Shown in pieces: positions 34,908 to 46,854 of a stretch of DNA of 58,256 nt (positions within the stretch are counted from its first letter, which is position 1; each line of letters starts with the position of its first letter). The position numbers and the translations under genes are program-made. Below the pieces are notes generated by a model. The model ran no database searches. It worked only from the letters and a program-made list of their open reading frames with translations, and was not told the origin of the DNA. Origin of the DNA: Triparma columacea (taxonomy: Eukaryota; Sar; Bolidophyceae; Parmales; Triparmaceae); NCBI GenBank assembly GCA_030267965.1, contig BRYA01000296.1, positions 1 to 58,256 of the forward strand. Reading direction: 5' to 3'.

Positions 34908-35147
34908 TTTTGAGCGAACCTACACCAAGTGTAAGTTTATAGCGGCAGATTACGATGTGAAAACTTATCAACAAAGCCTTGAAAGTACTCCACTTAGGAA
35001 GAAGTGGTCGTGTAGGTGCTAGTATTGGAATCCACCTCTGAGAAAGTTTCTTCGGGGAAGCAGAAGGCAGAAGTCGAAAGTCTGTCGAAAGGAAGAGAGT
35101 AACGTAGATCATTTTTATTAATAGCATAAAATCGTCAATCCTTTCAG
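34908..35147. other. Spacer between ankyrin-MYND gene and 5S rRNA
   Basis: Apart from the 5S gene that follows, the intergenic stretch to 35387 shows no coding frame. Confidence 0.5.
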
Positions 35148-35261
35148 AATCGGCCACACAATCATGACAGCACCGCTTCCCGTCTGCTCAGCGAAGTTAA
35201 GCATGACCTGGCTCTATTAGTACTACGGTGGGGGACCACGTTGGAACACAGAGTGCTGATT
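35148..35261 (+). rRNA. 5S ribosomal RNA (dispersed copy)
   Basis: The stretch aligns with eukaryotic 5S rRNA through its length: CGGCCACAC near the start, CGTCTGCTCAGCGAAGTTAAGC in the middle (first 20 bases shown by position 35190 onward), TTAGTACTACGGTGGGGGACC and GGAACAC. The ends AATCGGC and GCTGATT pair to form helix I. The internal box C region (GAAGTTAAGC) used by TFIIIA is recognisable. A TTTTTTT run follows directly as the RNA polymerase III terminator. It is a single dispersed copy on the plus strand between protein genes. Exact ends are estimated from helix I, about 114 bases. Confidence 0.9.
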
Positions 35262-35266
35262 TTTTT
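35260..35266 (+). terminator. Pol III T-run terminator of 5S rRNA
   Basis: Seven T residues directly follow the 5S helix I. Confidence 0.8.
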
Positions 35267-42728: not shown

Positions 42729-43226
42729 CTAATCATAATACTGTTTCACCTTCTTGCTCTCCTTCTCAAACTTATCAATTCCAAGTGTCCATCTTCCCGG
42801 GTTAGCCATTTCCTGTTGTTTCTTCCCTCCGATATGTTTCCTCATGAAGTGCTGAAGGCCTGAGAGTGTGAAAAGCTTTCCTGATAACTCGATGTCTGAG
42901 AACTCATCGCAGGTAAGGACGCCGTCGTTATTTACGTCGAGCTTTTTGAAGAGCTGCTCAGTATCATCTTCGCTTAAGTTCAGGTTGAGTTTGGAGGTGG
43001 CAGCGAAGAATTCAGACTTGTCCAAAACACCGTTACTGTCAAGGTCGAGCGCGTTGAAGAGGGACTGGACATTCTGAGGGATCGTCGTCTGGGGGACATG
43101 TACTCCAGCTGTCTGAGAGATTGTAGACAGGCCACGACTTTGGAGACTGGCAAGTCCCTGGCTTTGGAGGTTTGGGAGCTTTTTCAGCGTCGACCTACTG
43201 AGGGTATGGAGAACTGTGTGCATCAT
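42729..43226 (-). CDS. Small EF-hand protein, possible mitochondrial targeting
   Basis: This is a single-exon gene of 165 residues. An N-terminal stretch of about 38 residues rich in Arg, Lys, Ser and Leu without acidic residues (MMHTVLHTLSRSTLKKLPN) resembles a mitochondrial presequence. Two canonical EF-hand loops follow, DLDSNGVLDKSE and DVNNDGVLTCDE, spaced as a pair. The C-terminal 45 residues contain a basic helix and a WTLGIDKFEKE segment. Likely a small calcium sensor; the location is inferred from composition alone. Confidence 0.85.
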   Translation of the reverse strand: MMHTVLHTLSRSTLKKLPNLQSQGLASLQSRGLSTISQTAGVHVPQTTIPQNVQSLFNALDLDSNGVLDKSEFFAATSKLNLNLSEDDTEQLFKKLDVNNDGVLTCDEFSDIELSGKLFTLSGLQHFMRKHIGGKKQQEMANPGRWTLGIDKFEKESKKVKQYYD

Positions 43227-43371: not shown

Positions 43372-44295
43372 ATGATACTTTACGACATATTTATATTCAT
43401 TTTACTCATCTTCAACCCTTCAACAAACTCCTTCAAACTACCATTCTCAACAAAACGTCCCAAACATAACAAATATTCACTACCCGCACCAGCTCAGATC
43501 CAGGACCATCTAAATTATACACCACGCTACAATTCACGCCCCTCAACCTCCCTTTCCTCCACCACCTCCTCCCCTTCCTCCTCCCCTATCCCTGCGATCC
43601 TCTCAGGTGCGGTTGATGAGATTCCTTCAATCTTCCAATCCGGTGTTACCATGTGGAGTACAATCTCCACCTTACCCTCCCTCCTTACTGTCGACTCCTC
43701 CTCCCCTATTTCCCTCTCTAGTCTCCCCCTCTCCCCCGATCTACCTGTATGCGTGGTATTGTTGAGGTCATTCGGGTGACCCTTCTGCCAGGAGTATCTC
43801 CTTCAATTAAACTCCTGGCACCTTAAACCAAACGTCAACCTTATCGCTGTATCCATCGGTACTCCCACGTCCAGACACAAGGTTTGCAAGGCCCTTGGTA
43901 TTGACGAGACCTTCGTATACGCAGACGAGGAGGCTGAGATGCACAAGAGTTTGCGGCTTAGAAAATCCTTCAGACACACGTTCCTAAACCCCGCTACACC
44001 CATGTCTATCGCTGGTAGAATTTTCAGTGACCCTAAAAACGTTGGGAAAGGATTCAAGGATGGAGGTACGGATATGTTGAGGGAAGTTATGTCAAAGTGG
44101 GTAAAGGACGACCTCGTTATACTACCGCCTGAACCATCTCAGGCATTTAACCAAGGTGGATCATTCTGTTTTGATAAAGTAAGAGATGGGGGGGGGAGGG
44201 ATATACTTTACGCACACTATGATAGGTCTACGGGGGACCATGGGGACTTGAAGGATATGGAAAATGTCTTGGAAGGTATGGGAGGGGGACTATAA
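43372..44295 (+). CDS. PRXL2-type (AhpC/TSA_2) selenoprotein with in-frame TGA
   Basis: One exon carries a frame of 307 residues if the TGA at 43777-43779 is read as selenocysteine (codon 136). On both sides the same frame continues a peroxiredoxin-like 2 thioredoxin fold: VCVVLLRSFG, TGA, PFCQEYLLQL, then LIAVSIGTP, VYADEEAEMHKSLRL, FNQGGSFCFD and ILYAHYDRSTGDHGD. Relatives have Cys at the TGA position, giving a CxxC redox motif, here UxxC. A SECIS candidate follows the TAG/TAA-side stop by about 40 bases. The start (MILYDIFIFILLIFNPSTNS followed by Phe) looks like a signal peptide plus plastid transit peptide. It converges on the plastid sigma-factor gene. The alternative, a nonsense mutation or read error, is less likely given the SECIS. 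Confidence 0.87.
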
Positions 44296-44333
44296 GGTAA
44301 CCCCTGGAAACAACAAGTTCATAATCGAACATC

Positions 44334-44392
44334 TATCTCTCTGGGATGACTCCAACTCACGAATATGGGTGGGACGATGTAGAGAGAGAGAG
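44334..44392 (+). promoter_or_regulatory. SECIS element (candidate)
   Basis: This lies in the 3' untranslated region of the selenoprotein gene. Helix I pairs TATCTCTCT (44334-44342) with AGAGAGAGAG (about 44381-44391). The core quartet is ATGAC (44346-44350) facing CGAT (44375-44378), giving tandem G.A/A.G pairs. Helix II pairs TCCAACTCA (44351-44359) with TGGGTGGGA (44366-44374), eight of nine positions pairing. The apical loop CGAATA (44360-44365) has the conserved AA 12 bases after ATGA, the usual distance in eukaryotic SECIS. The structure was drawn by hand and not folded computationally. Confidence 0.75.
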
Positions 44393-44482
44393 TTCGGTCG
44401 AGAGACTTGTTGTTTCCCAAGCTTTTTGTTTGTTTTTGTATGTAAAAGAATGTTTTTTACCTTCCCCCCCAAAACCTCCTTA

Positions 44483-46854
44483 CTACTCGTTGCCCCTGAA
44501 GTCGTTCAAGCCCTCCTCCCTTGCAATCTTCTTCACTGCGCTTTTGAATACCTTGACGACCTTCCCCACGTTTTTCGTGTTCTCCTCCATCCCCAGGTCC
44601 CTGCATATTTCCTTGTACGTCCTCCCTCCCTTATCGAAGCTCCTCGTTGACTTCCGAAGGTCCCTCTCCATCCCTAGTCGAGACCTAACAACCGCCACTT
44701 CCCCCACGCTAAGTCTAGCCATGGCTTCCGCGAACCTCTCATGGAAGAGTTCCCCATCAAACCTCGCCACCGGGTCGTCCTCCTCGCTCGCTGCCAGTCT
44801 CTCCCTATGGTTGAACGCCGCTTCGTCTGTCCTTCCCCCCCCCCCCAAGTTCTGGTCGATGCTAGCGATTCCCCCCATAGCCTTAAGTTTATCAACGATC
44901 CCTTCCCCCACCCCAAGTTCCCCCGCAACCTCTTGACCCGTAGGTTCCCTCCCGTGTTCCCCCTCGTACTCCTTCCTGAATCTGTTGGCCTTTACCCTTA
45001 ATGCGTAGTACCTGTCTGGGACCTTTAACCCACCACCCTCCCCCCAGTTCTCGCGGTTCTGGCAACGCCTTAGGTAGGCTGTTATCCACGTCGTCGCGTA
45101 CGTGCTGAACCTGTTTCCACGACGACCGTCGTACTGAGAGAGGGGAATACAAGAGGGGTTAAAAAGGCGAGAGAGAGAGAGAATAGGCGGGCGGGCGAGC
45201 GTTAGAGGTAACGACATCAAGAATGTTTACCAACCTCCCCCCCCATCCCTGTTCTCTCCCCCCCTCTTGCTTCGCTCTTTTGCGCCTCACCTTCTCAGCA
45301 GCTCTGATAAGTCCAAGTATACCCTCCTGGTACATTTCCTCCCTCAAGTTACTCTCCTTCGTTCTCCCCCCCCCCCTGTTCGTGTTCGCCCTCCTCGCGT
45401 ATTGGTTCGATAGGCTTTTAACGAGTCTTAAGTTGTGTTTAACAAGCTCGTTACGAGCCCAGAAGTGAACCTCTGTGAGAGCCCCGAATTGGGACCTTGT
45501 TAGGGAGGGACAGGGGAGGGAGGAGGGGGGGGAGGATATGGGGGAGGAACGGATGTGGGAGAATACGCCAACGTTAAGACGACCGGCTTCTAGACACTTG
45601 CCGACTATGAACCTGCAAAAGAGTAAAGGCAGAGCCGCGAAGGAGAAAGGGTTGGTGGGAAATAAACGAGGGTTTAGGTTTAGGAGGAACAGGGTGGCAA
45701 TATGAGCGGGTGGAGCCACGGGGTAAATAAATATGTTCATCTTTAGCTTCTCTCCTCCCTCATCCCCGTTCTTACCTAAGCTCGTCCTTGCAACCCTGGA
45801 GGTCCTTTTCGTCACGGTGGATCTCGCAGTGCTCGTCAATGTCGAGCCCCTCGGGGAACGCCTTGGCGAATAGGAACGCGAACCGGTGGGTTGGGATGGA
45901 GGTTAGGGAGCGGAAGAGGAGGTCGGAGGAGGTGGTTCGGGTGGGGTGGGAGGCAGTGGCGGAGAGGGCCTTGAAGTCGGACGGGGAGGCGGAGCTTTGC
46001 TGGGCACCCTGAGAAAAAACCGGGGAGGGGGGGGGGGCGGAGGTTGGGGAAAGGGGAGAGGCGTTAGCGCAACGAGTCTTGGGTGTGTGGGGAGAAACCT
46101 CCTGACGATAAATTTTCACACTCTCACCTCCTCCTCCTCCCCGTCGTCCCACTCCGGGAGGCTCGTGAGAAACCACTGGTCGTCGGCGTCTAGGCCCACG
46201 AGGGTCTTCTGTAGCTCGTTGGCCACATTAAGGGTGTAAGTTATCACAAGGGAGAGGAAGTACTCAGAGGAACGGGTTAGGAGGTCATGGTTGGGAGGGG
46301 TGCTGACGTCAGTGCTGACGTCCGATTGATCGCCCGACAAGTTTCTATTAGCATTGGGTGGGGTACTGGGGGGGGGGGAGTGATGGGGGGGGGAGTGATA
46401 GGGCGAGTCGTCAGTTTGTCAGGTAATTGAAGCTTTCCGGAGTTTAGTGATTGATATAATCGATGTAACAGGGGTAATAGATAATCTCGAAGCGCTTCCA
46501 TATGTAATTACCCCCAACGTCGCACCCCCTTCCCCTCCCCCACCCACCCCCCAACCCGCACCTTTCTTCACTTGGTGTATTTAGCTGCCCTGTTTCATGT
46601 TTATCAATTATTTCTCTAAGGAGTTGTACATCTATAGGTACAGAACGTAATATTCTAGATGATGTTGACGTAGCTGTTGAATCCATCGTATAAAACAGAG
46701 GGAAGGAAAACCATTTGTTGCCTCTACTCCCTCTCTTTAATACTCTTGTCCTATCCACCCCGCCATGTGCATGCCCCCCAAACGATATTTGACGAGGTTG
46801 GAAGCTCGAGACGAACTTCAAAAGAAGGACCGCTAAGTACCAAGATTGTTTCAT
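44483..46854 (-). CDS. Plastid sigma-70 RNA polymerase sigma factor
   Basis: Five exons (46854-46562, 46365-46128, 46008-45776, 45612-45291, 45133-44483) give 578 residues with matching phases. The N-terminus MKQSWYLAVLLLKFVSSFQP looks like a signal peptide followed by Phe and a basic stretch, the bipartite targeting of complex plastids. Sigma region 2 is unmistakable: ELVKHNLRLVKSLSNQYA, EEMYQEGILGLIRAAEK, then across the last intron GNRFSTYATTWITAYLRR. Regions 3 and 4 follow, including LGMEEN and RTYKEICRDLG near the end. It directs the plastid bacterial-type RNA polymerase to promoters. The exon 1-2 junction is the least certain part; it uses a purine-rich intron with a C-tract acceptor. 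Confidence 0.88.

Follow-up and report, generated by a model that had tools for sequence, protein, structure and literature searches.

The window, a 58,256-nucleotide stretch of Triparma columacea DNA, contains a 307-codon open reading frame (ORF) on the plus strand (positions 43372 to 44295). As originally predicted, the frame is open except for a single in-frame TGA at 43777, which corresponds to codon 136. Codons 1 to 135 form a separate ORF, and 171 more codons are open downstream of the TGA. The features of the locus are as follows.

43372 to 44295, plus strand: intron-free coding sequence of 307 codons and TAA, with the TGA at codon 136 read as selenocysteine (Sec)
43372 to 43450, plus strand: start resembling a signal peptide, MILYDIFIFILLIFNPSTNSF, plus a basic/Ser-rich stretch, recognized by eye; possible bipartite plastid signal
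43777 to 43779, plus strand: in-frame TGA, proposed Sec136 of the motif UPFC (UxxC; partner Cys139)
44293 to 44295, plus strand: TAA, stop codon of the full protein
44306 to 44417, plus strand: SECIS element in the 3' region (z = -5.24; score reached by 0 of 3000 shuffles)
44346 to 44350, plus strand: 5' side of the SECIS core, ATGAC
44351 to 44374, plus strand: helix II, TCC.ACTCA / TGGGT.GGA, with the 6-nt loop CGAATA; AA at 44362 to 44363, 12 nt past the ATGA
44375 to 44378, plus strand: 3' side of the SECIS core, CGAT (tandem G.A pairs; U.U)

Upstream, the neighboring gene encodes an EF-hand protein on the minus strand (42729 to 43226). Downstream, approximately 190 nt separate the stop codon from the next ORF, and the hairpin occupies most of this interval. 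Two overlapping minus-strand ORFs (44483 to 45740), convergent with the selenoprotein gene, show weak matches to sigma-70 regions 2 and 3, below the Pfam cut-offs, and possibly represent a plastid sigma factor. In addition, the window carries a 5S rRNA gene on the plus strand (35146 to 35264; 91.8 bits).

The claim that homology continues in the same frame on both sides of the TGA was confirmed, as RSFG precedes the codon and PFCQE follows it (motif RSFG-U-PFCQE), together with a match to Pfam family AhpC-TSA_2 (PF13911) spanning residues 146 to 286 (40.7 bits; cut-off, 27). The assignment to the PRXL2 (AhpC/TSA_2) selenoproteins with a UxxC site holds in this respect, with one refinement: the nearest curated family, and the only significant one in NCBIfam, is the SelL-related redox protein NF040769 (37.1 bits; E = 2.4e-9). 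This score lies well below the curated cut-off of 120, marking the protein as related to that family and, by that cut-off, not a member of it.

Residue U136 occupies the N-terminal place of the CxxC pair, and its counterpart in human prostamide/prostaglandin F synthase (PGFS; PRXL2B) is Cys44; in the sequence-profile match to PGFS (E = 2.4e-9), the CxxC pairs of both proteins are aligned. In the predicted structure, modeled with Cys at position 136, this residue immediately precedes a helix that comes after a core strand, with a local pLDDT of >90. The original prediction had placed the TGA at the resolving-Cys position. A redox-active Cys position is indeed what the relatives described below indicate, but Sec136, at the N-terminal place in CxxC, is likely the attacking residue and not the resolving one, judging from these alignments.

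Relatives were pooled from three protein searches, one of which was restricted in its scoring to the 7994 candidates with the most words in common, yielding 42 proteins. In the proposed comparison with Cys-containing homologues, among the 34 records in which the site is visible, 33 have Cys at the TGA position (G-C-P-[FL]-C) and one, P0013, has Trp (G-W-P-F-C). The site is not visible in the remaining eight. Two of these, P0034 and P0036 (the latter representing 12 contigs), end exactly one residue before it; P0011, P0012, P0025, and P0026 start downstream of it, while the sequences of P0015 and P0023 are garbled at this point. Over 118 residues, P0026 shares 99% identity with the window protein; it starts at the first ATG downstream of the TGA, the one a gene caller would choose, which is expected if its DNA also contains the TGA. 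Under genetic code 4, TGA is translated as Trp. P0013, P0034, and P0036 are therefore best read as three further putative Sec genes, as far as can be judged from protein records. Public protein catalogues seem to store Sec proteins as truncated or Trp-at-TGA records of this kind, and ordinary gene calling seems to cut such genes at the TGA.

The N-terminus of the window protein consists of a hydrophobic stretch followed by Phe, and starts of a similar kind are seen by eye in P0013, P0034, and P0036. Ochrophyte plastid proteins carry a transit peptide in addition to a signal peptide that is followed by an aromatic residue, and a plastid location of the window protein is plausible on this basis. 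A hydrophobic start alone would equally suit a secretory protein, and the protein could be a true selenoprotein that is secreted, retained in the endoplasmic reticulum, or located elsewhere. We regard such a location as unlikely, though far from negligible, in view of the Phe common to these four proteins and of the green algal homologue P0001, whose start looks transit-peptide-like.

The same genome has other Sec genes, recognized by in-frame TGA codons at familiar Sec positions. These comprise two SelU-type genes (L004 on C539, RRSGUGNCRE; L005 on C762, RRPGUQICRE), two glutathione peroxidase (GPx) genes with the motif NVASxUG (L012 on C173; L013/L040 on C547), and a SelT gene with the motif CASUG (L011 on C113). 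A tree of 28 rows was built from the window protein, 24 of the 42 relatives, L004, L005, and L007; several rows are fragments, and animal SelU and SelL are not among them. The window protein groups with the Trp-bearing P0013, with P0025, and with the Cys forms P0014, P0019, P0020, and P0021 (support, 99/98). Its exact place is unsure because of its long branch (1.68). Sec at the base of the clade with later replacement by Cys is the simplest reading of this sequence-based tree, albeit not a proven one.

Members of the SelU/PRXL2 group share the AhpC-TSA_2 domain with the window protein and have their Sec/Cys pair at the same place, raising the question of whether the gene is an orthologue of classic SelU rather than a separate branch. 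The common Pfam family points in that direction, as does human PGFS, a SelU-group protein that tops both the structure and the profile lists. However, the genome has SelU-type Sec genes in their own right, L004 and L005, which in the tree stand apart from the window protein on a fully supported branch (100/100; length, 4.22). Moreover, their motif around Sec is RR[SP]GUxxCRE, whereas that of the window protein is RSFGUPFCQE, and the best curated match is SelL-related. With L004 and L005 as the SelU-type rows of the tree, orthology to SelU is improbable. SelU is reported to rank with the most widespread selenoproteins of algae, two of them being found in Thalassiosira pseudonana (PMC7539508, PMC2375036).

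Other known systems resemble the window protein in part. SelL has two Sec residues in a UxxU motif, with a diselenide, whereas the UPFC of the window protein combines one Sec with one Cys. SelL is described as a peroxiredoxin-like protein whose Sec forms occur mostly in aquatic eukaryotes (PMC2398784). In green algae, the PRXL2-like proteins P0001 (Chlamydomonas sp. UWO 241), P0002, and P0009 have the motif GCPFCQE, with Cys where the window protein has Sec, and P0001 also has the blocks NPATP, QGG, and TGDH in common with it. AhpC_b of Thalassiosira oceanica is, like the window protein, an algal UxxC selenoprotein with an AhpC-type domain; compared here by its published description, it is reported to have only prokaryotic homologues (PMC7539508). 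As a probable UxxC selenoprotein, the gene is a new addition to a class that is broadly known from algae.

Eukaryotic SECIS elements feature a core of ATGA and GA and, in the apical loop, an AA located 11 to 12 nt after the core. A SECIS had been predicted about 40 bases after the stop codon, with ATGA, tandem G.A pairs, and AA at the canonical distance. All of these elements are present, although the spacing differs, as the hairpin begins approximately 10 nt past the stop codon and the ATGA lies approximately 50 nt past it. Its architecture comprises a long lower helix, the ATGAC / CGAT core, and a further helix that is interrupted by a single mismatch and capped by a six-base loop. Rather than rejecting the SECIS, folding of positions 44297 to 44423 yielded a stable structure of -50.4 kcal/mol (z = -5.24), and 0 of 200 shuffles were as stable.

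A scan for the SECIS form was performed with a scanner written after the window element had been seen. In the 600-nt 3' region, no shuffle out of 3000 gave an equal score and 8 gave any match. Sequence from elsewhere, 301,552 nt when the two strands are added together, contained 18 matches. One of these, at position 1954 of the window on the plus strand, is SECIS-like and has a total energy of -31.9, compared to -30.1 for positions 44306 to 44417, with poorly closed helix ends. It is probably a chance occurrence; closed helix ends became a requirement of the scan once this match had been seen. Elsewhere, the first scanner returned weaker matches in L008, L010, and L013 and one antisense match in L012, and it missed the candidates of L004, L005, and L012. 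L008 has a PF13911 match under the cut-off and no convincing redox motif in the DNA examined.

A wider scanner, designed once the sequence 3' of L004, L005, and L012 had been read, found one candidate within 900 nt of the stop in each of L004, L005, L012, and the window gene (L006), and none in L013, whose stop had been guessed. With loosened limits, it gave one candidate in the SelT gene L011, which looks textbook, and three in L040. Before this loosening, the background of the wider scanner amounted to 19 matches in 367,132 nt, a figure that includes the gene candidates and counts the window element twice. As in the window element, candidates with an ATGAC core are located past the stops of L004, L005, L012, L011, and L040. 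An Rfam SECIS search gave no match at E values up to 10 between window positions 43000 and 45000. This silence says little about the window gene, since the search was likewise silent for L004, L005, L012, L013, and L006 (L011 was not included).

Most of the Sec machinery is present in the genome, including the tRNA-Sec, SBP2, and EFSec components for which a genome search had been proposed. Rfam identified two tRNA-Sec genes with the anticodon UCA (64.5 and 61.7 bits; cut-off, 47); ARAGORN reported no tRNA-Sec in L001 to L003, where Rfam found the two. A single base of the variable arm distinguishes the copies in L001 and L002. For the SBP2 candidate, SBP2 is the only significant match among solved structures (E = 2.1e-7), and an exon in L025 has eEFSec as its best match (E = 3.3e-14). 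SepSecS is present in three stretches, and SelD was found in three pieces, each below the family cut-off; when searched exon by exon, no selB or selD match exceeded its family cut-off. The best selB match, L017, was rejected as eEFSec, as it reads by eye as an organellar EF-Tu. A search for PSTK yielded no clear candidate: three matches were just over the KTI12 cut-off, and of the two whose frames were read by eye, neither looks PSTK-like.

Considering this evidence, UGA codon 136 is very probably decoded as Sec, such that a gene that looks broken encodes an intact redox enzyme. That the UGA instead acts as a genuine stop, or as a leaky one at which some other amino acid is inserted, giving short and extended selenium-free proteins, is hard to credit: leaky UGA codons are generally known and the first 135 codons are an ORF of their own, but the short product would be without most of the modeled thioredoxin-like domain, Cys is found in nearly all records showing the site, and the locus has a SECIS and the genome most of the Sec machinery. 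An assembly error (a true TGC or TGT, each one nucleotide away from TGA) or a decaying pseudogene with a premature stop is highly improbable, given the SECIS at the right place, the records P0034 and P0036 that end at the same codon, the start of P0026, which fits a stop upstream, and the 171 further codons that are open and conserved.

Under the preferred reading of Sec insertion, the product would carry Sec in a thioredoxin fold and fall within the PRXL2/SelL-related (AhpC-TSA_2) group, with the SECIS in the 3' region recruiting the eukaryotic Sec machinery to UGA codon 136. Sec136 would attack the substrate, which may be a peroxide or another oxidized molecule; Cys139 would then form a selenenyl-sulfide bond with Sec136, and thioredoxin or glutathione could reduce this bond. 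The protein would act in the plastid. Taken jointly, the plastid location and this chemistry are somewhat favored. If they are correct, a selenoenzyme would be at work inside a complex plastid, and redox control close to photosynthesis would be directly affected by the supply of selenium.

We tentatively propose, at a little short of an even chance, that the gene represents an undescribed clade of plastid-imported UxxC selenoproteins that is ancestral in an ochrophyte lineage, in which some members later replaced Sec with Cys and the Sec forms are hidden as truncated or Trp-bearing records. A search for the string GUPFC across the main text of a limited set of papers returned three, none with a title on selenium. 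The interesting part is that a single clade seems to mix Sec and Cys forms in related organisms, making the reasons why Sec is kept or lost testable.

Two further observations concern Sec genes elsewhere in the genome. Short-helix-II SECIS candidates, with 5 to 6 pairs and the AA only 7 to 8 nt after the ATGA, were seen in L004 (reverse-strand coordinate 1959) and in L040 (approximately 69 nt past the stop, reverse strand). In L032 (C366), an NADH-dehydrogenase-like oxidoreductase seems by eye to be joined to SelD/SPS, which lies behind it in the fusion; PMC2398784 describes an Ndh-SelD fusion from metagenomes of marine origin.
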